NCBI RefSeq assembly: GCF_026341515.1
Contig: NZ_JAPEOK010000001.1
Span: 7,750,001 to 7,814,000, forward strand
Reading direction: 5' to 3'
From: Streptomyces sp. NBC_00878
GTDB lineage: Bacteria; Actinomycetota; Actinomycetes; Streptomycetales; Streptomycetaceae
DNA length: 64,000 bases
A model generated the notes under the pieces. It ran no database searches and was not told the DNA's origin. It was given only the letters and a program-made list of their open reading frames with translations. The position numbers were made by a program, and so were the translations under genes. Positions 47,210 to 59,235 of this stretch are shown one piece after another (position 1 is the stretch's first letter; every line of letters starts with the position of its first letter).

Positions 47210-47896
47210 ATGGCCGTGCTGACCTTCGAACTGCCCGACGGATCGACGCGCGAGGTCGATGTCGTCCGGGTCCTCAACGCCGGGTACGCCGGGCGCAGCC
47301 AGGAGGACGTCGCCGCGCACGTCGCGGAGCTCGCCGAGCTGGGCGTACCGGGCCCGTCCGTGACGCCGGCGCTCTACCCCGTCTCCCCGTACCTCGCCCA
47401 GCAGACCGGCCGCGTCGCGGTCCAGCACGGCCGCACCTCCGGCGAGGCCGAGTGGGCGCTGGTCGTCGCGGAGGGCGGTGAACTGCTGCTGACCGCCGCC
47501 TGCGACCACACCGACCGCGACCTGGAGGTGCACGGGGTCGCGTGGAGCAAGAACGCCGGCCCCGATGTCCTGGCCCGCCGTGCCTGGCGCCTGGCCGACG
47601 TGGAGACCCGCCTCGACGAGCTCACCCTGCGTGCCTGGGTCAGCCACGACGGCACCGAGACCGAGATCCAGGCCGGGACGCTGGCCGAACTCCTCGCCCC
47701 GGCCTACTGGGTCGACGTCCTGAGGTCTCGCGGCGAGCTGACGCCCGGGACCGTGCTGATCTCCGGCACCATCCCGATGGCTCCCGGCGTCGACCAGTTC
47801 GCCGACGGCTGGCGCGTCGAACTGGGCGACCCGGCCGGCGGCGACACCATCAGCCTCGCCTACGACGTCCGGCCCATGCCGGAGCCGATCGGCTGA
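47210..47896 (+). CDS. DUF2848 protein (fumarylacetoacetate-hydrolase-like)
   Basis: A 228-residue protein of the DUF2848 family, which looks like a member of the FAH-fold hydrolases. Recognisable parts are VLNAGYAGRSQEDVAAHV near the start, DHTDRDLEVHGVAWSKN in the middle with likely metal ligands, and LISGTIPMAPG near the end. Such proteins occur beside transporters and amidases in catabolic operons. The divergent start with shared operators places it in the same regulon as the MHS transporter, nitrilase and cupin. The exact reaction is unknown. Confidence 0.88.
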   Translation: MAVLTFELPDGSTREVDVVRVLNAGYAGRSQEDVAAHVAELAELGVPGPSVTPALYPVSPYLAQQTGRVAVQHGRTSGEAEWALVVAEGGELLLTAACDHTDRDLEVHGVAWSKNAGPDVLARRAWRLADVETRLDELTLRAWVSHDGTETEIQAGTLAELLAPAYWVDVLRSRGELTPGTVLISGTIPMAPGVDQFADGWRVELGDPAGGDTISLAYDVRPMPEPIG

Positions 47897-47980
47897 CACG
47901 CCTGAGTTTGTCTCCCAACTGAATCGTCCCGCTACGAAAGTCGCTTGTGGGTGCCTCCGTCCGGATGATGGGGTCGCACG

Positions 47981-48943
47981 GTGACCGACCACGAAGAGGC
48001 TGCGACTGTCCGGCCGTTGACCCTGGCTTGGGTGAACCGGCACCTGGAAGTCGGCGAACGGATCGTCAGAATCGAGGCGCTGCACGGCGGTGCCACCGCC
48101 GAAATGCGGCGGCTGACCATCGGCACGCGGGACGGAGGCACCCGCGACCTGGTGCTGCGGAGCTTCGTCGACCCGTTCTTCGTGGAGCACGCCGAGGACG
48201 GTCTGAACAGGGAGACTGGCGCCCTGACCCAGCTCCCGGGGACCGGCGTGCCGGCTCCCGGACTGGTCGCGGTCGATCCGACCGCCGCGCAGTGCGAGTA
48301 TCCGTCGCTCCTGATGACCCATCTGGCGGGCCGGACGGTCCTCGACGACGAGGGACTGGAGACGCGCGTCCCTCTGCTGGCCCGCCAACTCGTCGCGATC
48401 CACGGGGTGCGGCCCGCCGAGCGGCCCCGGAAGTATGTGACGTTGACGACCGCCGACACCGTCGTGACCCCGAAGGGCGCCGACGCCGCGGCATGGGCCG
48501 CGGCGATCGACGTGATCCGGGGGCCCGTGCCGCCCTATGAAGGGCGCTTCCTGCACCGGGACTTCCACCCCGGCAACGTGCTGTTCGAGGTGCCGCCCTC
48601 AAGGCCGGCAGGTGCCCGGATCACCGGAGTCGTCGACTGGGCAGCGACCTCCTGGGGTCCGGTGGATCTCGATGTGGCGCACTGCTCCACCAATCTCGCG
48701 CTGCTGCACGGCCCGGCGTGGGGTCTGCGGTTCGCCGAGGCGTACGAGGAGGCCGGCGGCGTGCTCGCCGCGGCGGCGAGCGAGCGGCTGTACTGGCGGG
48801 TGCGGGACGGGCTGGCGTTCTCGGAAGAGGTGCGGTTGGTGGCGCGGCCATGGCGGGAGGCGGGGAGGACGGAGCTGACGACGCGGGTCGTGGAGGAGCG
48901 GCTGGATGCCTATGTCACCGGCTTGATGGACGGGCTGGGCTGA
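47981..48943 (+). CDS. aminoglycoside phosphotransferase (APH)-family kinase-like protein
   Basis: A 320-residue kinase-fold protein. The catalytic loop is LHRDFHPGNVLFE with Asp and Asn, and the metal-binding Asp is in VVDWAATSWGPVDLDVA. The N-lobe has LHGGATAEMRRLTIG. The family phosphorylates small alcohols including antibiotics, choline and sugars, so resistance should not be assumed. The GTG at 47981 is used. A very strong terminator follows after 50 nt, so the gene is alone. Confidence 0.9.
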   Translation: MTDHEEAATVRPLTLAWVNRHLEVGERIVRIEALHGGATAEMRRLTIGTRDGGTRDLVLRSFVDPFFVEHAEDGLNRETGALTQLPGTGVPAPGLVAVDPTAAQCEYPSLLMTHLAGRTVLDDEGLETRVPLLARQLVAIHGVRPAERPRKYVTLTTADTVVTPKGADAAAWAAAIDVIRGPVPPYEGRFLHRDFHPGNVLFEVPPSRPAGARITGVVDWAATSWGPVDLDVAHCSTNLALLHGPAWGLRFAEAYEEAGGVLAAAASERLYWRVRDGLAFSEEVRLVARPWREAGRTELTTRVVEERLDAYVTGLMDGLG

Positions 48944-48993
48944 GCCGAGGCGACCGCACTCCCAACTCGGGCACCTCTCGCTGACCGCACTCC

Positions 48994-49051
48994 CAACTCG
49001 GCACCCCTCGCTGCCAGGACCCGAGCCTGGCGGCGAGGGGTGCCCGAGTTG
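48994..49051. terminator. long stem-loop terminator after the APH gene
   Basis: About 24 base pairs: CAACTCGG pairs with CCGAGTTG, then CACCCCTCGC with GCGAGGGGTG, then GCCAGG with CCTGGC, with one bulged C and one G-U pair. A partial copy of the left arm lies just upstream (48961-48981). Confidence 0.85.
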
Positions 49052-49231
49052 CTGTTCGCTACGCGAGGAGGAAGATGGAATATCAAGGCTGACGATCTCG
49101 ATGAAGGCGCGCCGACAGAACACGGAAGCCTCTACTGAATTCGCCACTGTATCGCCATGTGCGGGCCCGCGATCGCTATGTGCAGGCCCGCGCGAGGCCA
49201 CGGCGTGCAGCTTCTTTCAGGGGTGACGGTG

Positions 49232-49534
49232 ATGACAGAAGCGCAAGAGAGCGGTCTGCAGCTTTCCCAGATGATCTCGGCGCTCCGTGACGAACTTGAA
49301 CAGGCCCAGCTGAATGCAGAAGGGGAAAATCTGCGATTCGGCATTTCTGGCGTCGAAGTCGAAGCCACTGTCCAGGTCTCCAAGGAGTGGGAAGGCAAGG
49401 GCGGTGTGAGGTTTTGGGTCATCGAGGCGGGTGGCGGCCGAACGAAAGGTAATTCCACGAGCCAGCGGATCAAGTTGGATCTGACTGTGCCCGACGGTAT
49501 GCGAATTGCCGATCCCAAGGGGAACGTGCAATGA
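49232..49534 (+). CDS. Trypco2-domain protein
   Basis: A 100-residue protein matching the trypsin-co-occurring domain 2 (Trypco2): LSQMISALRDELEQAQ helix, then ENLRFGISGVEVEATVQV and a beta-hairpin RFWVIEAGGG, ending in SQRIKLDLTVP. The domain was named because it is regularly encoded beside trypsin-like proteases coupled to NTPases in bacterial conflict systems. Here its stop overlaps the ATG of exactly such a protein by 4 nt. It may be the adaptor or proteolytic target that links sensor and protease. The ATG at 49232 has AGGGGTGA upstream; no promoter motif is evident. Confidence 0.88.
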   Translation: MTEAQESGLQLSQMISALRDELEQAQLNAEGENLRFGISGVEVEATVQVSKEWEGKGGVRFWVIEAGGGRTKGNSTSQRIKLDLTVPDGMRIADPKGNVQ

Positions 49535-52500
49535 CGCGTTTGAACGCCGAGTCTCTTGTCTGTGTCGAGACAACCGAGAAACGCGGCTCCGGTTACTTGC
49601 TGGCACCCAACCTCGTACTGACGGCAGGGCATTGTGTCGAGCCGAAGGGCACCCTGGTCGATGTCAAGAGGTTCAAGCGCAACGCGGACGGTCGATACGA
49701 CCTGACGGACCCGCACACCTTCGAGGTCAAGGTGCACGGCGGGAACAGCGGGAACAGCGGGAACGGCGGGAACGGCGCTTCGGGCGAACAGGAAATCGAT
49801 TTCGCGCTGCTGGTCAGTGCCGACGAAGACCCGTTCACGGTAGGTGAGAGCGCTTCGTCCGAAGAAGTGCGGCTCGGCCGTCTCGTCGGCACGGACGCCG
49901 TTCCGGCGCAGGCCCTCGGTTTCCCCAAGGCTCAGATCGGCTCCGGCCGCATGAACGTCGAGGACGCCCGCGGCACCGTGCGTCCGCTGACCGGCTCTCG
50001 CTCGGCGAACGATGCCGGTGTCCTGATCGAGAGGCTGAACTTCCAGGTCGAGAGCGGGGTGCCGACGAGCCGTCCGGGACCGTCGCTGTGGAGTGGCATG
50101 TCCGGCTCGGCCCTGTTCAGCGGCGATCACCTGGTGGGTGTCGTCGTGGAAGACCGCGCATCCATCAACGGTCGACTGCACGTCGTCCCCGTCAGTCGAA
50201 TATTCGGCAGGCAGGGACGGCCGGACGCGAACCAGTGTCTCGACCGGGCACGCGGGCTCGACCCGGCGACACGGGTGCAACTGGACCCGGTGTGGGCGGG
50301 CGGTGATGTGCTGCGACCGGCCTACGAGCCCATGCCGATCCGGTACCAGTGGTCGGAGGCGGACCTCCTGCGAGCCCGCCACGACGTCGTACCTTTCCGA
50401 GGCCGGAAGGAACAGCTCGGGGAGCTGACCGACTGGTGCGAGCGGAACACCGAGCGGCCCGTGCACGTGCGGCTTCTGTTCGGGGACGGTGCCGTGGGCA
50501 AGACCCGCCTCGCACGGGAGTTGTGCCGCCGGATGGGCGACAGAGGCTGGATCGCAGGAATCATCGATCCCGTCGATCTTTTGCGCTTCGGATTCTCCCA
50601 ACTCCTCGACCTGGCGGAAAGTCGGCTGGTGGTCGTCGATGACGCCGACGCGTACGCCGGCCAGCTGAACGCTCTCCTCGACGAGGCCGTAAAGGATCGG
50701 AGCGGTTTTCCGCTGCGCATACTGGCCATTGCCCACAGTGATGGCCAGTGGTGGCAGGCGCTCAGGCGGCGATATGAGGCACTCCTGGAGGAACGCGACC
50801 CCCCACTCCGCCTTACCGCTCCGAAGCTCGAAGGACGCAAAGCCGTCTACGACGCCGCCCTGAAATCCTTCACCTCCTGGTACCAGCACAAGGAATCAAA
50901 ACAGAATTCGGACGCCGGTCGGAAGAACGGCGATTCCCCGTCGGCGCAGGAGCGGCTGGACCGAGAGGGGGACGGACCGGATCTCGAAGAACCTGACTTC
51001 GCCAGCTATCTGCTCGTCCTCATACAGGCTCTGGTGGACGCGCGCGCACGTATCGGCATCGAGGAGAGCAGCGCGGTCGTAGGCGGTCCCCGGCCGATCT
51101 CCCTGCGAGCGGCACTGCTGGACTACGCCATTGACGTGGAGCGGGAAGCGTGGCGGAAAACGGCCGGCCAAGCAGGGCTCTACAGCGATCCGGTGCTTCT
51201 CGAACGGGTCGTCGCCATCTCCAGCCTGGCAGCGGCTGACGGCACCGAAGAAGGCGCCGGTGAGACCGAGGCCGCGCGCCGGCTGCGGCTGGTTCCCGAT
51301 CTCGCCGACGAACCGGAGTGGCGCAGGCGCGCGTTCGCCCGCTGGCAGCACACGCAGCTCAGCGGGGAAGGCTATCTGCGTACGCTCCAGCCGCTGCGAC
51401 TCGCCGATCGCCTGGGAAGCAAGGTGATCGCGGCGTTCCCGGACCTGGCCATGCAACTGCTCGATGTCGAGGGGACCGGCGACGGCACGCCCCAGGAACC
51501 CGCCGCACAGTCACGCCAGGTGCTCAACGTGCTGCAACTGCTGCAGTTCACCATGGCCGACGACGGCATGGCCGCGGACGGGCCCGGCACGGAGAAGGAC
51601 GGGACTCAGCCGGCATCGCAGCCCGACGCGGAGCAGCACAAGGCGCGCGAGGCCCTGGCCGGGGCGCTCCATGAGCATGCGGCCGCCCTGGTCCGGCTGG
51701 TCAAACGCGTCGCGGTCACGGATCAGGACGACTCCGCGCATGCCATCGGCACGTCCCTGGCCGCCGCACTGAATTGCACGCTCCCCAAGGAGTCGGCGCA
51801 GGAGGTCTCCGCCCAGGTACTGCGGGAGTTCGACGTGTCCTGCCCCGATGCCCTGCTGGAGCTGGCGACGGCCGTGGCGGAACGCGCGGTGCAGTACCAC
51901 CGGCGCGCCGCCGCCGGACCGCCCACGCGCGAGAGCCGCAGAGGACTGGCCCAGGCCCTGCAACGGTGGTCGCTGTACCTGGCCAGTTCGGGCCTGCGCA
52001 TCCGGGCGCACAGTGTCGCCGGGCAGGCCGTCGACACCTACCACGCGCTGCAACAGCTCAGTCCGTCCGAGGAACACGAGTTCTACCTGGCCGAGGCACT
52101 CAAAGACCTGGCGGACCGGCTGGTCGACGTCGGGCGGTTCGAGGACGCCGACAACTGCGCCCGCGATGCCATACGGCGCCTGGAGCCGGTGTTCCAGCGC
52201 AACCCCACCCGCGGGCACTCCTTCGGTCTCGTGAAGGCCCTGTGCACCCTGGCCACGGCGGCTCACGGCACCGGGCGCCAGCGCGAGGCGTTGCAGGCGG
52301 CGACCGAGGCATGTGACCTGATCGGGCAGTTGCCGGAGGAACGCGAAGGCGACGCCGAGCACGGGCCGGACGAGATCCAGGGCATGAAGGCGTTCGCGTT
52401 GCGCGGCCTCGCCTGGCAGCTCGGCGCGAGCGGACGCGTCGACCAGGCGGTGGCGAAGGCCACCGAGAGCGTCAAGGCGTACGAAGCACTGCGCGAGAGG

Positions 52501-53304
52501 TGTCCCGGCCTGTGGAAGCGGGACATCGCCGAAGCCCTGTCCGTCCTCGGCGTCCAGCACGCCGCCAGGGAGGAGTGGGACGACTGCGTCGCCCGGCACA
52601 GCGAGGCCGTGAACGACTACTACAACGCGCTGGAGCGGGAGTACCGCGAGGCCGTACGTCCTCAACACGCCCTCGCGCTGGTCCGGTTGGCGGACGCGTA
52701 CCTGGGCAGAGCGCGTTCCCGGTCGTCCGAAGGCCAGCACGAAGGCCAACACGAAGGCCACCACGAAGACCTGCGGGAGGCGCAGGACCACGTGGAGCAG
52801 GCGTTGGACCAGTACGACCGGATGCGCAAAGAGGACAGATGGGCCAACCGCGTCCACGAGGCGTGGACCAGCCGCCTGCAAGCGGAAGTACTGCTGGAAC
52901 TCGGCACCACGGACCGCCGGGCCGAGGCCGCGGCCCGGAAGGCGCTGTCCCTGTACGACGAGATGGACGTACGCGCCTGGAAGCTCAGGTTCGACAGAGC
53001 ACGCGCACAGGCGGTGCTGGCCGAAACGTACGGGGGCCGGGGGCGCCCCCGGGGCAAGGTCCTGCGCGCGCACGAGCAGGCCAAGGACGCGTTCGCCCGG
53101 CTCGACGCCGAGGAGCCGGGGCGGGCCGAGGCCGCGGTGCGGAAGGTCGAGAACGCGATCGAGGACCTCAAGCAAGCGGGTCCGCCCGTCCGGCCCCGTG
53201 CGGAGTCCGCGGCGAACCGGTCGGGCAAGCGGCGCAAGCGCCACCAGCCGAAGCCCCGCCTCCGCAGCCGTCAGCGCACTCATACGCGTCGGAGACACCG
53301 GTGA
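49531..53304 (+). CDS. trypsin-like protease / P-loop NTPase (STAND-like) / TPR fusion protein
   Basis: A 1257-residue multidomain protein. Residues 1-240 are a trypsin-like serine protease with an intact triad: His34 (TAGHC), Asp90 (EIDFALL) and Ser191 (GMSGSALF). Residues about 285-480 are a P-loop NTPase with FGDGAVGKTRLA (Lys324) and VVVDDADAY (Asp370-371). A helical region and TPR-like repeats run from about 640 to 1215 (for example EALKDLADRLVDVGRFEDAD and HALALVRLADAYLGRA). The C-terminus is strongly basic. The architecture is that of NLR/STAND proteins: TPR senses, NTPase switches, protease acts. Short coding repeats (GNSGNSGNGGNG and QHEGQHEGHHE) are present. It is cytoplasmic, as there is no signal peptide. 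Confidence 0.92.
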   Translation: MTRLNAESLVCVETTEKRGSGYLLAPNLVLTAGHCVEPKGTLVDVKRFKRNADGRYDLTDPHTFEVKVHGGNSGNSGNGGNGASGEQEIDFALLVSADEDPFTVGESASSEEVRLGRLVGTDAVPAQALGFPKAQIGSGRMNVEDARGTVRPLTGSRSANDAGVLIERLNFQVESGVPTSRPGPSLWSGMSGSALFSGDHLVGVVVEDRASINGRLHVVPVSRIFGRQGRPDANQCLDRARGLDPATRVQLDPVWAGGDVLRPAYEPMPIRYQWSEADLLRARHDVVPFRGRKEQLGELTDWCERNTERPVHVRLLFGDGAVGKTRLARELCRRMGDRGWIAGIIDPVDLLRFGFSQLLDLAESRLVVVDDADAYAGQLNALLDEAVKDRSGFPLRILAIAHSDGQWWQALRRRYEALLEERDPPLRLTAPKLEGRKAVYDAALKSFTSWYQHKESKQNSDAGRKNGDSPSAQERLDREGDGPDLEEPDFASYLLVLIQALVDARARIGIEESSAVVGGPRPISLRAALLDYAIDVEREAWRKTAGQAGLYSDPVLLERVVAISSLAAADGTEEGAGETEAARRLRLVPDLADEPEWRRRAFARWQHTQLSGEGYLRTLQPLRLADRLGSKVIAAFPDLAMQLLDVEGTGDGTPQEPAAQSRQVLNVLQLLQFTMADDGMAADGPGTEKDGTQPASQPDAEQHKAREALAGALHEHAAALVRLVKRVAVTDQDDSAHAIGTSLAAALNCTLPKESAQEVSAQVLREFDVSCPDALLELATAVAERAVQYHRRAAAGPPTRESRRGLAQALQRWSLYLASSGLRIRAHSVAGQAVDTYHALQQLSPSEEHEFYLAEALKDLADRLVDVGRFEDADNCARDAIRRLEPVFQRNPTRGHSFGLVKALCTLATAAHGTGRQREALQAATEACDLIGQLPEEREGDAEHGPDEIQGMKAFALRGLAWQLGASGRVDQAVAKATESVKAYEALRERCPGLWKRDIAEALSVLGVQHAAREEWDDCVARHSEAVNDYYNALEREYREAVRPQHALALVRLADAYLGRARSRSSEGQHEGQHEGHHEDLREAQDHVEQALDQYDRMRKEDRWANRVHEAWTSRLQAEVLLELGTTDRRAEAAARKALSLYDEMDVRAWKLRFDRARAQAVLAETYGGRGRPRGKVLRAHEQAKDAFARLDAEEPGRAEAAVRKVENAIEDLKQAGPPVRPRAESAANRSGKRRKRHQPKPRLRSRQRTHTRRRHR

Positions 53305-53438
53305 AGCCCCGGGGCCGAGGTGCGGGGGAGCGGCTACGGCCCGCTACTGGATCGAACGGCACTGGATCGGACGCCACTGGATCGGACGGCCTCGCCGTCG
53401 CCGACGCAACGACCGGGAGCTAGCCAAGGAGTACCGCG

Positions 53439-55292
53439 ATGAACAAGCAACGACCCGCCGCACCACGTTCCACAGCCGCGTACCGTACGTCACTGCCCTG
53501 GCGGATCGTCACCGCCGGCGCCGAATACGTGGACCGGCGCATCGGCTGGGACAGACTGCCCGTCCTGCCGGGCCTGTTGACGCTCCTCGGACTGCGCGTC
53601 AAGCTCCGGCAGAAGAACCTCCACGACACCGGCCACCTGCCCTCGGTCGATCCGCCCGATCCCGCGCCCCCCTCCGGGACCCACAAGGTCAACCGGACCG
53701 TCGACGGCAGCCACAACGATCTCGACGAGCCGCGGATGGGCATGGCGGGCACCCGCTTCGGCCGGAACATCCCGCTGGACCGGATCGCACCGGCCACCCC
53801 CGAGGACGTACTGTCCACGCCGAGCCCGCGCGAGGTCAGCCGCGCCCTGCTCACCCGCGACGAGCTCACCCCCGCCGAATCGGTCAACTCCCTGGTCGCC
53901 GCCTGGCTTCAGTTCATGGTCCGTGACTGGTTCAGTCACGGGACCAGCCCCACGGAACAGCCCTGGGAAGTACCTCTCATGGACGACGACCCGTGGCCGG
54001 AACACCCCATGCGGATCATGCGGACACCGGACGACCCGACCCGCGACCCGCAGGCACCCGCGGGGACGCCCGACACCCGCGTCAACGTGTCCTCCCACTG
54101 GTGGGACGCCTCGCAGATCTACGGGACGAACGAGACCGAGCAGCGCCTGATGCGCGCCGGCGAGCTGGGCAAGCTGCACCTGTGGGACGACGAGCAGTCC
54201 CCGGTCCCCTCGGACCCCTCCCGGGACCCCTCGCACATCCCCGGCTTCTGGCTGGGCCTCGCCATGATGCACGACCTGTTCGCCCGTGAGCACAACGCGA
54301 TCTGCGATCACCTGCACGGCGCGTACCCGTCCTGGAACGACGAGGAACTCTTCCAGCGCGCCCGGCTCGTCAACGCCGCGCTCCTCGCCAAGATCCACAC
54401 CGTGGAGTGGACACCGGCCGTGATCAGCCACCCCACCACCGTCACGGCACTGCGCGCCAACTGGTGGGGCCTCGCGGGCGAGCGCGTCCACCACCTCTTC
54501 GGCCGGATCAGCGACAGCGAGGTCGTCAGCGGCATCCCCGGCGGGGAAACGGACCACTACGGCGTCCCGTACTCCCTCACCGAGGAATTCGTGGCCGTCT
54601 ACCGCATGCACCCGCTCATCCGTGACGAGTGGCATCTGCGCGCCGCCGCCGACGACGCCAGCCTGCGCCACTGCACCCTCCGCGACATCTCGGGCCCCGG
54701 GGCACTGAAGGCCCTGGAGACCACCGAGATGGCCGATCTGCTCTACAGCTTCGGCACGCTCCACCCCGGACTGGTCACCCTGCACAACTTCCCCAGGTTC
54801 CTCCAGGAGTTCGAGCGCCCGGACGGACATCTGCAGGACCTCGCCGCCACCGACATCCTGCGCTCCCGGGAGCTGGGCGTCCCCCGCTACAACGAGTTCC
54901 GGCGGCTGCTGCGGCTGAAGCCCGCGGCGGACTTCGCGGAGCTGACGGAGAACCGGGCGTGGGCCGAGCAGATCCAGCGGCTCTACGACGGCGACATCGA
55001 GAAGGTCGACCTCATGGTCGGGCTGTACGCGGAGAAGCTGCCGACCGGATTCGCCTTCAGCGACACGGCGTTCCGCATCTTCATCCTGATGGCTTCACGC
55101 CGGCTGAACAGCGACCGCTTCTTCACCGAGTACTACACCCCCGAGGTGTACTCCAAGGCCGGTATGGCCTGGATCGACGACAACTCCATGATCACGGTGC
55201 TGCTGCGCCACCACCCGGAGCTGCGTACGGCTCTCGCGGGGCTGACGAACGCCTTCGTGCCGTGGCACAACGCCGGAAGGACGGTGGACTGA
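53439..55292 (+). CDS. heme peroxidase / alpha-dioxygenase-like protein
   Basis: A 617-residue member of the animal-type peroxidase-cyclooxygenase superfamily, closest in feel to fatty-acid alpha-dioxygenases. A distal-side motif is HDLFAREHNAICD (His278, His285), the proximal heme ligand is probably His449 in VTLHNFPRF, and SSHWWDASQIYG is a family block. Such enzymes oxygenate fatty acids using a tyrosyl radical. The ATG follows AAGGAG. It lies 134 nt after the trypsin-NTPase-TPR gene (the gap has a repeated CACTGGATCGGACG word) and 1 nt before the next gene, so it belongs to the same group. A lipid-oxidising enzyme here could be an effector that damages membranes or makes a lipid signal. 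Confidence 0.9.
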   Translation: MNKQRPAAPRSTAAYRTSLPWRIVTAGAEYVDRRIGWDRLPVLPGLLTLLGLRVKLRQKNLHDTGHLPSVDPPDPAPPSGTHKVNRTVDGSHNDLDEPRMGMAGTRFGRNIPLDRIAPATPEDVLSTPSPREVSRALLTRDELTPAESVNSLVAAWLQFMVRDWFSHGTSPTEQPWEVPLMDDDPWPEHPMRIMRTPDDPTRDPQAPAGTPDTRVNVSSHWWDASQIYGTNETEQRLMRAGELGKLHLWDDEQSPVPSDPSRDPSHIPGFWLGLAMMHDLFAREHNAICDHLHGAYPSWNDEELFQRARLVNAALLAKIHTVEWTPAVISHPTTVTALRANWWGLAGERVHHLFGRISDSEVVSGIPGGETDHYGVPYSLTEEFVAVYRMHPLIRDEWHLRAAADDASLRHCTLRDISGPGALKALETTEMADLLYSFGTLHPGLVTLHNFPRFLQEFERPDGHLQDLAATDILRSRELGVPRYNEFRRLLRLKPAADFAELTENRAWAEQIQRLYDGDIEKVDLMVGLYAEKLPTGFAFSDTAFRIFILMASRRLNSDRFFTEYYTPEVYSKAGMAWIDDNSMITVLLRHHPELRTALAGLTNAFVPWHNAGRTVD

Positions 55293-55293
55293 C

Positions 55294-57345
55294 ATGGCAG
55301 CGATTGACAGGTCCCGCGAGGAACGGGAGCACCAGGTCGCGGCGGCTGCCGCGCGGTACGACGAGACCGGTGACGAACGGCGGGCGGTCGAGCGTCAGCA
55401 GGACGCCGGGGTCGCCTTCCCCGATTCGCAGGAGGCGCTCGCGGCGCGCGCGGCCCGCCTGCTCGACCGGCACGCGGTGCCCGCCGCCATGGTGGTGGAG
55501 GCCGTCCGGGCGGAACCACTGGCCGAGTCCGCAGCGTACGAACGCATCCTCGGGGTGTCCAAGGATCTGCAGGCATGGAGCTTCCTGCCGCGCGGCGCCC
55601 GGGCGGCCCGCACCGTCGCCCGGATCTCGGCGCGGGAGAACGGCCGTGAGCTGCCTGTCGGAACCGGCTTCCTGGTGTCGCCGAGCCTGCTGCTGACCAA
55701 CCATCACGTGCTCCCCGACGCGGAGGCCGCCCGGCAGAGCTTCGTGGAGTTCGAGGCCCAGGTCAGTGTCGACAACACACCTCAGCCACTGACGCGGCTG
55801 GAACTCGACCCCGACGGCTTCTTCGTGGCGGACGCGAGGCTCGACTTCGCCCTGGTGCAGGTCGCCCCGGGCCCGGACCAGCGGCCCCCGGGCGAGACGT
55901 TCGGCTGGAACCGGCTCAGCGTCCAGACCGGAAAGCTGGTGATCGGTGAGCCGGTCAACGTCATCGGCCATCCGATGGGGCGCCTGAAGGAGATCGCCGT
56001 ACGCGACAACCTGCTCCAGGTGCGCCTCGACGACTTCATCCACTACAAGACGGACACCGAGCCCGGCAACTCGGGCTCTCCCGTCTTCAACGACCAGTGG
56101 GAGGTCGTCGCTCTCCATCACAGCGGTGTGCCCAGGACCGACGAACAGGGCCGCGTCCTGCGCAGTGAGGGAGAGGTCTGGCAGCCCAATGACGGCGATG
56201 ACGCCATCGACTGGGTGTCCAACGAGGGCGTACGCATCAGCTCCCTCCTGAAGCACCTCGCGGCCCTGCCCCTCACCTCCCGGCAGCAGGCGCTGCTGGC
56301 CGAGATGGGCCCGGAGTCGGGGCTGGGTGTCGCGGAGACCGCCGTCGGTCCGATGGCGGCTCCCGCTCCCGCTCCGACGCCCACTCCCACCGCCGCAGCG
56401 CCACGCCCGTCTGTCGAGAGGGTCCCTGTGCTCAGGGGCCTGCGTGCCCGGGACGGCGCGTTCGGCGGCAGACGGCACCTGGTCTTCCTGCACGGCCGCT
56501 CCCAAGAAGAAACGAACCCGGAGGATTCGCGCCGGGAATGGACGGCCGGACTCAACCAGGGGCTCGTCCGCGCCGGGCTCGCTCCGGTCGACCCGGCGGA
56601 CGTCTGGTACCCCTACTACGGCGACAGGCTGGTGCAGGCCCTGGCCGCACACGAGGCCGTCCCCCACTTCACCGAGGCGCCGACCGCCAGGGCCGCGGAG
56701 GCGGTCGCACCCGCCACCCCCACCGCCCGCGCGGTGTACGAGGAGATCATCGGCGAGGCGGCCACGAAGTGGGACATGCCGCAGGAGGGCCCGATGGCCA
56801 CCGAACGGTTCGGCCTGGACGGCGTGGTCGGGGCCCTGCAGAAGCGGCTGAGCTGGCTGGCCGCCAGGAGCGACCTCGATGCCTGGGCCATCGCCCTGGT
56901 CTTCCGTGACGTGGCCGCGTACCTCGACGACCGCCGGATCCGGGACGAGGTCCTGGACTGCGTACTCGAGACGATGCCGGACTCTGGGGACGTGGTGCTC
57001 GTCAGTCACAGCCTCGGCACGGTCGTCGCCCTGGATCTCGTCACGCGGCTGTCTCCCGGAGTGAACCTCGTCCATCTGACCACGGCGGGCAGTCCCCTCG
57101 GCATGGACAGCGTGTACGGCAGGCTGCTCGTCGGCGGGCCCAAGCGCCCGGACATCGTGGCGGACTGGCTCAACGTCTGGTGCCCGACCGACGCGGTGGC
57201 CATCGGCTGCCCGCTGCGCGACGACTGGGCGGACGGACTGTCCGACCTCGCTGTCGTCAACGCCCGCGACCGGGCGCACAAAATCGTCGAGTACCTCGCC
57301 CACGCCGAGGTCGCCCGGTCGATCGGCAGCCACCTCGTCGGCTGA
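55294..57345 (+). CDS. trypsin-like serine protease fused to alpha/beta hydrolase
   Basis: A 683-residue fusion starting 1 nt after the peroxidase stop. Residues about 100-330 are a trypsin-like protease with His138 (TNHHVL), Asp184 (RLDFALV) and Ser260 (GNSGSPVF). A Pro/Ala/Thr linker (about 348-375) follows. Residues about 390-683 form an alpha/beta hydrolase: LVFLHGRSQEE near its start and the nucleophile Ser573 in VSHSLGTVVALDLV, with a later Asp/His pair in CPTDAVAIG and NARDRAHKIVEYL. The first 95 residues are helical and may be an interaction domain. No signal peptide, so it acts in the cytoplasm. Protease control of a lipase/esterase is the simplest reading; the real substrates are unknown. 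Confidence 0.9.
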   Translation: MAAIDRSREEREHQVAAAAARYDETGDERRAVERQQDAGVAFPDSQEALAARAARLLDRHAVPAAMVVEAVRAEPLAESAAYERILGVSKDLQAWSFLPRGARAARTVARISARENGRELPVGTGFLVSPSLLLTNHHVLPDAEAARQSFVEFEAQVSVDNTPQPLTRLELDPDGFFVADARLDFALVQVAPGPDQRPPGETFGWNRLSVQTGKLVIGEPVNVIGHPMGRLKEIAVRDNLLQVRLDDFIHYKTDTEPGNSGSPVFNDQWEVVALHHSGVPRTDEQGRVLRSEGEVWQPNDGDDAIDWVSNEGVRISSLLKHLAALPLTSRQQALLAEMGPESGLGVAETAVGPMAAPAPAPTPTPTAAAPRPSVERVPVLRGLRARDGAFGGRRHLVFLHGRSQEETNPEDSRREWTAGLNQGLVRAGLAPVDPADVWYPYYGDRLVQALAAHEAVPHFTEAPTARAAEAVAPATPTARAVYEEIIGEAATKWDMPQEGPMATERFGLDGVVGALQKRLSWLAARSDLDAWAIALVFRDVAAYLDDRRIRDEVLDCVLETMPDSGDVVLVSHSLGTVVALDLVTRLSPGVNLVHLTTAGSPLGMDSVYGRLLVGGPKRPDIVADWLNVWCPTDAVAIGCPLRDDWADGLSDLAVVNARDRAHKIVEYLAHAEVARSIGSHLVG

Positions 57346-57365
57346 ACCCGAACCGCCCGGTCCTG

Positions 57366-57396
57366 ATGGAGGCTCAGGCCTGTCCCGAGCCTCCAT
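57366..57396. terminator. terminator closing the protease-peroxidase block
   Basis: ATGGAGGCTC (57366-57375) pairs perfectly with GAGCCTCCAT (57387-57396) around an 11-nt loop, 20 nt after the protease/hydrolase stop. Confidence 0.8.
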
Positions 57397-57537
57397 GTGG
57401 AGTCGCGAGCAGCGACGGCGTGCCGCCCAACTCGCCTGCACGGCGGAAGGGTTCCGCAATTCAAATTAGGAATATTCAACGAATGGAGTCCGTTTCTCCC
57501 TGTCGCACTGTTCTCGGCTCCGCATTAGGATGGCGGT

Positions 57538-57969
57538 ATGAAGACAACCGAGTTCTATGAAGTAAGGGAGGGCGATGCGCTCTCCGTAATCGCGAAAAGG
57601 TTCCATGTGACGCTGGCTCAGATCCTGGAGTGGAACCCTCAGATCACCAATCCGAATCTCATACACCCGGGACAGCGGGTCCGTGTGGCCCCACCGGGCG
57701 GAGAGCCTGACGGCGAGTACGAGCCCTACCCGGGAAAGGACTTCTTCCAGTCTTCCGTGAGTAGCCCGGTAATCGAGGCCATGGGCTATCGCCTCATCGA
57801 GGAGGGTTGCTCGGCATACTCCGGCGGACCCGACTACCAATGGAGCGAGGCGGACCAGAAGTCCTACGCCAAGTGGCAGCGCAAGCTCGGCTTCTCAGGT
57901 GCGGACGCGGACGGAACTCCCGGTAAGCAGTCGTGGGACAGGCTCCATGTGCCCGCCATCTACGAGTGA
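57538..57969 (+). CDS. LysM and peptidoglycan-binding domain protein
   Basis: A 143-residue protein. Residues 6-53 are a LysM domain (YEVREGDALSVIAKRF, QILEWNPQITNPNLIHPGQR), which binds N-acetylglucosamine polymers. The C-terminal half (PVIEAMGYRLIEEGCSAYSG, then YAKWQRKLGFSGADADGTPG) is the peptidoglycan-binding module usually found at the end of actinobacterial and phage-like muralytic enzymes. There is no catalytic domain and no signal peptide. It has AGGATGG upstream and a membrane-protein gene 33 nt downstream, which may be its partner. Confidence 0.9.
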   Translation: MKTTEFYEVREGDALSVIAKRFHVTLAQILEWNPQITNPNLIHPGQRVRVAPPGGEPDGEYEPYPGKDFFQSSVSSPVIEAMGYRLIEEGCSAYSGGPDYQWSEADQKSYAKWQRKLGFSGADADGTPGKQSWDRLHVPAIYE

Positions 57970-58002
57970 ACAACTCGTCCCGGGCACCAACGGAGACTGG
58001 CA

Positions 58003-59235
58003 ATGGACCATTCTGTGGCGGGCCCGGAGGGCCATTCGGATCGCACGCGCCGACGGGTCGCGACCGGGTTGCATTTCCGACCCCCGCGATCGGCATGGCG
58101 TGCACGGGCCAAGACCCGTATCGCCTATCTCGAGGCGCAGCTGAATCATGAGAATGCCGAGCCGTGTTCCGACGATCGTAAGGCCTTTATCGACGGAGCA
58201 AAAAGCCATCTGGGAAAGGCCCGCTTCGCGGCCGACGAAACATTCGGATGGCGGCGGCCATGGTCGGGTTCAACCGCCCGCGAAGGCGTTTGGTCGAATG
58301 TGCGCAGCGCCGAGGTGCTCCTGCTCCAACTGGCTTCCAAAGCGGAAGCCGTCGGCCGCGCAAGCGAGGTCATGGCGCTGGCCAAGCTCCATCTGGACAA
58401 GGACGACCCACTGCGCGTCAGACTCGCCCAGCGGATCCGATTCATCGTTTCCGGCAAGCTGACGGCGAGCGACAGGGATCTCCTGGCCCGGGCGCTCGAC
58501 GGCGCGAACAACGCTCTGGACAGCGAACTCGCCCGAGTCCACAGCCTGCGCAACATGCTCTGGACCGCCACGTTCGTCGTTCTTCTCGGCGTTATGGGCA
58601 TCGCCCTCTACGGCTGGTTCTCCCCCAGCTCGCTGAGCTTGTGCTTCACACCCAAGGTCAGCCCGGGCGGCGTGAACCAGATGGACGTCGTGTGCCCCAG
58701 CATGGAGTATTCCGACGTGTCGACAAGCACGGCTCCCAGCAGCAAGGCTCTGCCGAGGGACATCCTCACCGTCGAGATCGCTGGGCTGGCCGGCGCGGCG
58801 CTCACGGTCATCGCCTCGCTGCGTCGGATACGGGGTACCAGTGCCCCCTATATGTTGCCCCTGGCGTCGGCGGTCCTGAAGTTCCCCACCGGCGCGCTGT
58901 CGGCCTTCCTCGGAGTGCTGCTGATCAGGGGCGCCTTCGTCCCCGGACTGAGCGACCTGGACAGCAGGGCGCAGGTTCTCGCCTGGGCCGCGGTCTTCGG
59001 CGCCGCGCAGCACCTGGTGACCCGCCTGGTCGACGATCGTGCCCAGATGACCTTGTCGGAGGTAAGCATGCCCACCGACGCGGCGGTCGACCCGGAGAAC
59101 GCCGCCGTCAAGGAGGACCGCGAGGTGGAGGAGGCCGACACTCCCGCGTCGCGGACCGCCGTCTGGGCCGACGGTGGGCAGGCCCCAGGCCCGGACGGCG
59201 AACGTGCCCGGGAAGCACCGGCGGACCAACCTTGA
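58003..59235 (+). CDS. multispanning membrane protein of unknown function
   Basis: A 410-residue protein. Residues 1-180 are soluble and helical. Three or four spans follow (MLWTATFVVLLGVMGIALYG at about 187-206, then about 256-275, 290-312 and 325-345), with a short extracellular loop containing two cysteines (LCFTPKVS and VVCPSMEYS). An acidic Pro/Ala-rich tail ends the chain. The ATG has GGAG eight bases upstream. It lies 33 nt after the LysM gene. The layout of a helical cytoplasmic domain on a small membrane bundle is seen among membrane effectors of conflict systems, but no family is recognised. Confidence 0.83.
   Translation: MDHSVAGPEGHSDRTRRRVATGLHFRPPRSAWRARAKTRIAYLEAQLNHENAEPCSDDRKAFIDGAKSHLGKARFAADETFGWRRPWSGSTAREGVWSNVRSAEVLLLQLASKAEAVGRASEVMALAKLHLDKDDPLRVRLAQRIRFIVSGKLTASDRDLLARALDGANNALDSELARVHSLRNMLWTATFVVLLGVMGIALYGWFSPSSLSLCFTPKVSPGGVNQMDVVCPSMEYSDVSTSTAPSSKALPRDILTVEIAGLAGAALTVIASLRRIRGTSAPYMLPLASAVLKFPTGALSAFLGVLLIRGAFVPGLSDLDSRAQVLAWAAVFGAAQHLVTRLVDDRAQMTLSEVSMPTDAAVDPENAAVKEDREVEEADTPASRTAVWADGGQAPGPDGERAREAPADQP

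Follow-up and report, generated by a model that had tools for sequence, protein, structure and literature searches.

The window analysed here, a stretch of 64,000 nucleotides from Streptomyces sp. NBC_00878 (NZ_JAPEOK010000001.1, positions 7,750,001 to 7,814,000), carries at positions 49,232 to 57,345 four genes, encoding a Trypco2 protein (T2), a trypsin-NTPase-TPR protein (NTP), an alpha-dioxygenase-like haem oxygenase (PX) and a trypsin-alpha/beta-hydrolase fusion (TH). Our preferred reading, to which we give a probability of about 0.45, is that they represent a modular conflict-type locus that turns over, with a protease-gated hydrolase and a fatty-acid oxygenase as its effector arm and T2-NTP as a separable protease-NTPase switch. 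Comparison with related loci supports PX-TH as the better supported pair and T2-NTP as an older neighbour that was probably often lost. The original prediction, made from the letters of the window, had described all four genes as a single conflict system. Analysis bore out the genes, their catalytic residues and their variable location, and supported both the resemblance of T2-NTP to conflict systems and the oxygenase-TH pairing. The four-gene system and the haem ligand proposed for PX (His449) were not upheld.

49232..49534, + strand: T2, Trypco2 protein of about 100 amino acids (aa), ATG start; PF19631, E 3.3e-24, a score obtained on a longer frame beginning at 49157
49531..53304, + strand: NTP, overlapping T2 by 4 nt; trypsin (aa 1-225), STAND-like NTPase (about aa 285-640), TPR-like C-terminal part (about aa 750-1200)
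53305..53438, no strand assigned: gap between NTP and PX with a putative deletion junction, where c3 and a GMC oxidoreductase sit in relatives
53439..55292, + strand: PX, alpha-dioxygenase-like haem oxygenase; PF03098, E 6.1e-106
55294..57345, + strand: TH; Trypsin_2, E 8.1e-26; helical N-terminus (aa 1-107), trypsin (aa 108-345), P/A-rich linker (about aa 346-385), alpha/beta hydrolase (about aa 386-683)

The open reading frames (ORFs) of the window and Pfam placed all four genes where they had been predicted, including the 4-nt overlap of T2 with NTP and the single nucleotide between the PX stop and the TH start (TGA-C-ATG). NTP and PX are 134 nt apart.

Association of PX with TH

The predicted pairing of an oxygenase with a protease-hydrolase fusion recurs in relatives. 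A TH alignment was scanned against 84,980 species genomes and gave at least 80 loci; with those from the genus and class surveys, 115 TH loci were examined, of which 103 contained the hydrolase part and 97 of these were distinct. When the fetched stretches, usually 7 kb on each side, were searched with a joint profile of PX and another haem peroxidase, a PX-family gene was detected at 25 of the 97 distinct loci, among the TH loci listed, against about 0.04 expected by chance, an estimate that takes the genus density of 39 copies in 150 genomes and a guessed 8.7 Mb per genome. Ten times this density would give 0.4 expected against the 25 observed, and the genus density may not fit Nocardia or Nonomuraea.

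These 25 loci comprise 10 with PX upstream of TH, 2 with another haem peroxidase directly beside it (L118, upstream with an 18-nt gap; L193, downstream) and 13 with the PX-family gene further off. The directly upstream arrangement belongs to Streptomyces, and the stop-start string TGACATG is found in 7 of the 10 PX-TH loci printed. The 13 further-off genes come from Nonomuraea-type, Nocardia, Smaragdicoccus and Streptomyces records; the PX-family gene and TH are divergent in L177 and L183, the former lies downstream of TH on the opposite strand in four Nonomuraea-type records, and both are on the same strand in Nocardia. Among the other 12 loci, with a trypsin-only TH, a PX-family gene was present in 2, including L207, where TH is cut by the record end.

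On the TH tree, the PX-adjacent copies fell into one clade of 12 with a Shimodaira-Hasegawa-like approximate likelihood ratio test (SH-aLRT) value of 85, and the enclosing clade of 15 has an SH-aLRT of 100. Two clade members without PX, L136 and L140, retain PX 3' remnants, that of L136 being weak (E 5e-04). The non-adjacent class needs 6 changes on the same tree, at least 5 of them forced by starred branches. In a class survey of 182 genomes, PF03098 and a TH-type gene occurred together in 5 and were neighbours in 2, namely the source genome (G000), which was the query, and G444, in which the TH match covers aa 12-372 only; class-wide co-location is weak evidence for the link. The PX-TH link is firmer than the link to NTP. 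Our search of the open-access PMC literature found no description of a PX-TH or a T2-NTP-PX-TH pairing.

Enzymes of the candidate effector arm

The animal haem peroxidase fold spans the full length of PX (PF03098 over aa 86-596; 4hhr_A over aa 18-611, E 5e-103). A classical peroxidase was considered and rejected, the best matches being alpha-dioxygenases. Residue roles (the tyrosine, the proximal histidine and the carboxylate-binding His/Arg) were taken as named in PMC8720084, which, like the other PMC sources below, is cited from excerpts. Alignment to solved plant alpha-dioxygenases placed the catalytic (radical) tyrosine at Tyr388, the carboxylate-binding pair at His320/Arg555 and the proximal haem histidine at His391, and the earlier choice of His449 as haem ligand was therefore wrong. 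PX shares with the fatty-acid alpha-dioxygenases of plants (4hhr, 4kvj) and cyanobacteria (PMC8720084) the whole-length match, the catalytic tyrosine, the proximal histidine and the carboxylate-binding histidine and arginine, but differs from them at the distal haem histidine, which is replaced by Arg162 (codon 53922-53924). Arginine is fixed at this position in 14/14 PX loci with identities of 61% or more, counting that of the window; in the 24 other PX loci the position is histidine in 23 and neither histidine nor arginine in L071. Since the distal histidine is only partially conserved in the alpha-dioxygenase family (PMC8720084), Arg162 is unusual rather than unheard of. On these alignments PX is best described as alpha-dioxygenase-like and is not called an alpha-dioxygenase proper; the clade with the fixed arginine raises the question of what such an enzyme does without a distal histidine. 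Relatives of PX (61-65% identity) adjoin a patatin-like protein in 4 loci (L042-L045; Patatin E 5.7e-04, below cut-off), so that PX has two unrelated lipase-like partners, TH being the one in the window.

The C-terminus of TH is predicted to be an alpha/beta hydrolase that is lipase-like by fold and residues. Pfam gave no match for the hydrolase part of the window protein, and 13 of 39 aligned TH relatives match Abhydrolase_6 there. The hydrolase was modelled separately, because the trypsin domain had filled the fold search of the full TH model, and when folded alone by AlphaFold2 it adopted an alpha/beta hydrolase fold with the Ser-Asp-His residues. With this model Foldseek found nothing at E ≤0.001, and the domain is matched about equally well by thioesterases, lipases and DDHD domains. 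Its SHSLG motif presumably resembles that of intracellular phospholipase A1. In the AlphaFold2 model of TH, aa 3-107 are helical and the P/A-rich linker has low confidence. The trypsin residues His138/Asp184/Ser260 and the hydrolase residues Ser573/Asp633/His662 are invariant in 38/38 aligned TH proteins, and the trypsin residues His34/Asp90/Ser191 and P-loop Lys324 of NTP are kept in 9/9 aligned NTPs, in agreement with the claim that the catalytic residues of both proteins are intact.

The trypsin half of TH is also found fused to Endonuclease_1 (PF04231) in place of the hydrolase (L120 and L123 by Pfam; L121, L124 and L125 by alignment), which makes the hydrolase look like a swappable effector; these fusions form a trypsin-nuclease fusion family in Streptomyces. 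In L126 and L127 the TH-type protein is split into two genes downstream of a caspase gene, and further genes adjoining TH encode Amidase_3, PG_binding_1, Peptidase_M43, Astacin and Exo_endo_phos. In two Nocardia, the TH stop overlaps by 4 nt with a gene whose STAND/NACHT-like NTPase matches are weak and below cut-off. About 20 Streptomyces loci have in common a conserved TH neighbourhood without PX, and PX is thus one TH partner among several. Databases name the large TH family merely as serine peptidases, and its recurrent proximity to haem oxygenases is a testable association even if the defence reading fails.

T2-NTP and a proposed older gene row

PMC7159879 names Trypco2 as occurring next to trypsin in conflict systems, which supports the conflict-system flavour attributed to T2-NTP, since T2 adjoins NTP in 9/9 NTP loci (in L130 the T2 match spans two frames). 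What they share is the adjacency of Trypco2 to a trypsin-NTPase protein; the effectors of the published systems include alpha/beta hydrolases and trypsins, and those systems, as here, come from multicellular bacteria. T2-NTP differs from them as a two-gene unit without MoxR, vWA or VMAP among the neighbours scanned: no MoxR ATPase/vWA of the VMAP ternary system was detected among 8 window proteins (47210-59235), the rest of the genome lying outside this search. The words peroxidase and lipase are absent from the text of PMC7159879.

The NTPase of NTP is STAND-like and scores slightly below the Pfam cut-offs (AAA_16 5.1e-07, nSTAND_NTPase5 7.6e-06), and TPR in the NTP family comes from a Pfam match of homologue L131 only (TPR_12 1.6e-06). 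Twelve pairwise comparisons with relatives over T2, NTP, PX and TH gave a ratio of nonsynonymous to synonymous substitutions (dN/dS, NG86) of 0.24-0.41, and no internal stops were found, which argues that all four genes are under purifying selection. The source genome contains 3 Trypco2 genes; at the two other loci the trypsin-NTPase genes are different, and PX and TH were not found nearby in 18-kb stretches.

Two draws of genus genomes were used to analyse how often the genes stay together. Among the 150 genomes of the first, PX-family genes at E 1e-20 or better occurred at 39 places in 35 genomes. The second, of 392 genomes, yielded NTP orthologues in 9, PX orthologues (at least 79% identity) in 17, and TH (N-terminal 360 aa at 53% or more) at 19 places, with a further fragment of 147 residues in G198. 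Outside the window, genes were called with a home-made ORF caller that missed some, such as the GMC gene in L035, which was recovered by tblastn. All four genes were together in the source genome only, of the 392. PX lay beside NTP in 2/17 genomes (G000, G062) and TH beside NTP in 2/19 (G000 and G317, the latter being L140). PX and TH were neighbours in G000, G108 and G388 and on different contigs in G260. In 6/9 cases NTP was away from intact PX and TH, one of the six carrying PX and TH scars. The original prediction had itself proposed that oxygenase and hydrolase genes lying mostly apart from T2-NTP would speak against a common system, and on these counts the four genes as one unit were rejected. 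Its expectation of a variable location was borne out, as a flank of >200 bp outside the block was common to only 9/91 pairs of 14 loci.

In the genomes holding both genes, NTP and PX were neighbours in 2/2 and NTP and TH in 2/2, with G000 in both counts. That the genes are neighbours wherever they occur together, and that scars suggest one shared older locus, speaks against a purely accidental link of NTP with PX and TH; the link appears to be an old neighbourhood and not an obligate system.

The scars, found by DNA comparison with the window modules, are short (35-148 bp). G108 (L035) has intact c3, GMC, PX and TH with a 75-bp remnant of the NTP 3' end (83%) upstream, and L207 is alike, with an NTP remnant of 77 bp at 90%; the two have 3.3 kb of flank in common and were therefore counted as one event. 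In G062, T2-NTP and PX are kept with broken c3 and GMC pieces between them and TH is absent; in G317, T2-NTP and TH are kept, separated by two PX 3' end pieces, one of 76 bp (76%) and one of 41 bp (93%); in G242, T2-NTP is kept, with a 42-bp piece of PX (95%) and a 148-bp piece of TH (86%) behind it. GMC pieces lie ahead of PX in L132-L134. Homology of the window to G062 is lost at about 53331 and picks up again at about 53424, the expected place of c3 and GMC, so that the NTP-PX gap reads as a deletion junction at which c3-GMC may have been lost. The simplest reading of these remnants suggests that the relatives descend from an older row, T2-NTP-c3-GMC-PX-TH, of which different parts were lost in each lineage. 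Five c3-GMC-PX-TH loci (L135, L137, L138, L185, L217) show no trace of NTP, and T2-NTP may thus have joined the row later. A GMC oxidoreductase is intact beside PX in 7/17 genomes (G108, G016, G388, G054, G227, G269, G258); G062 has GMC remnants, G194 c3 only and G013 a c3 remnant, and GMC is absent in 7/17.

Two side observations concern these genes. The PX of G194 (L218), which has c3 but no GMC beside it, contains one in-frame TGA, and may be decaying or reflect a sequencing slip. NTP of the window (49531-53304) looks chimeric, with a break near 51780: its identity to five relatives (L128, L129, L140, L213, L214) is mostly 38-71% over aa 1-750 and mostly 69-89% over aa 750-1200, and the relatives checked against one another show even identity along their length. 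It may be that the TPR part was retained while the protease-NTPase core was exchanged.

Proposed mechanism, rival explanations and neighbouring genes

Beyond gene content and active sites we infer every step: the trigger, the cleavage, the substrates, cell death or defence, and any role against phage. T2-NTP would have come to lie upstream of PX-TH. On a trigger, NTP would oligomerise, and the protease of NTP, of TH or of both would cut the flexible linker that tethers protease to hydrolase in TH. The freed hydrolase could then release acyl chains from lipids or thioesters, PX would oxidise the free fatty acids to 2-hydroperoxy acids or aldehydes, and these products might harm the membrane or signal damage. 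We consider a gated hydrolase feeding an oxygenase the most likely arrangement, which agrees with effectors already described as activated by proteases (PMC12799240, PMC13236601). A fuller version, in which an immune-type NTPase-protease switch fires a lipid-destroying arm, the protease-released hydrolase feeds a cyclooxygenase/alpha-dioxygenase-family enzyme with arginine for the distal histidine, oxidised lipids are the death or alarm effector and the parts are exchangeable actinobacterial cassettes, is unlikely to hold in full. Bacterial immune systems are known to attack membranes with pores and phospholipases; a second step carried out by a cyclooxygenase/alpha-dioxygenase-family oxygenase would, if true, join bacterial cell-death systems to plant and animal oxylipin chemistry.

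PADLOC reported no known defence system, with weak partial matches only; the protease domains match defence models weakly (NTP to Avs1b, 3.1e-05; TH to RT-Protease_XI, 4.1e-09), and the window trypsins also weakly match the LmuA profile. These matches are the likeness to the nuclease-protease pairs of AVAST, Lamassu, Hachiman and DRT, in which trypsin-like proteases activate partner pro-nucleases (PMC12799240). In contrast to those pairs, the effector candidates here are a hydrolase and an oxygenase, and a scan of the 8 neighbouring proteins found no MBL-fold nuclease of the AVAST/Lamassu kind. In CARD-NLR systems, of which LypABC is an example, gasdermins are exchanged for phospholipases or endonucleases (PMC13236601). 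Their resemblance to the locus lies in the helical N-terminus and trypsin of TH, the NTPase partner, the phospholipase effectors there and the trypsin-endonuclease fusions within the TH family; for the N-terminus it lies in the helices of the AlphaFold2 model, which would make a CARD there a possibility at most. The excerpted text of PMC13236601, however, mentions no haem oxygenase partner.

Two other explanations were weighed against this modular locus with its gated hydrolase and oxygenase. T2-NTP as a conflict pair and PX-TH as a pair of unrelated use might be independent units at one variable site with no common mechanism. The low counts of PX and TH beside NTP, the six NTPs without intact PX or TH, the meeting of NTP and PX across a putative deletion and the survival of each part without the others all agree with this. 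But NTP neighbours PX or TH in every genome that holds both, and the remnants of NTP in G108/L207, of PX in G317 and of PX and TH in G242 suggest a row inherited by several lineages, and we regard two unrelated units as rather unlikely. Intervening genes and opposite strands make a functional tie less sure for some of the 13 loci in which the PX-family gene is further off.

Alternatively, the locus could be the remnant of a fatty-acid oxidation (oxylipin or aldehyde) pathway, with c3-GMC-PX as a metabolic unit whose c3-GMC part the window lost, TH as fatty-acid supplier or stress protease and T2-NTP as incidental. Alpha-dioxygenases produce fatty aldehydes (PMC8720084), GMC is intact beside 7/17 PX orthologues with remnants or c3 alone in 3 more, and relatives of PX occur with a DyP-type peroxidase and the patatin-like protein. 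This seems distinctly unlikely, since several lineages lack c3-GMC or have it in broken form while PX is intact under purifying selection, and the fusion of a protease to the hydrolase, like the endonuclease-fused relatives of that protease, would be left unexplained. We retain a protease-gated hydrolase and oxygenase, with a separable T2-NTP switch, as the preferred interpretation.

Two genes downstream of TH may be associated with it:

57538..57969, + strand: LysM/peptidoglycan-binding protein, possible associate; homologues directly upstream of TH in 4/80 TH loci listed (L143-L146)
58003..59235, + strand: membrane protein, possible associate, with no Pfam family matched; homologues in the fetched stretch of 6/80 TH loci listed (L143, L144, L145, L154, L163, L206)

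Elsewhere, L042-L046 contain a conserved row of an unknown protein, a DyP-type peroxidase, a protein of about 390 aa without a Pfam family, c3 and a PX relative (62-64% identity); the patatin-like protein of the row in L042-L045 is a membrane protein. Pfam found nothing in a conserved protein near PX, for which the label 'catalase-like' was read by eye. In 18 genus loci (L054-L071), matches to the family of about 390 aa lie directly upstream of a distant PX (35-43% identity) in open frames of about 970-1300 aa, which suggests that the two are fused there.
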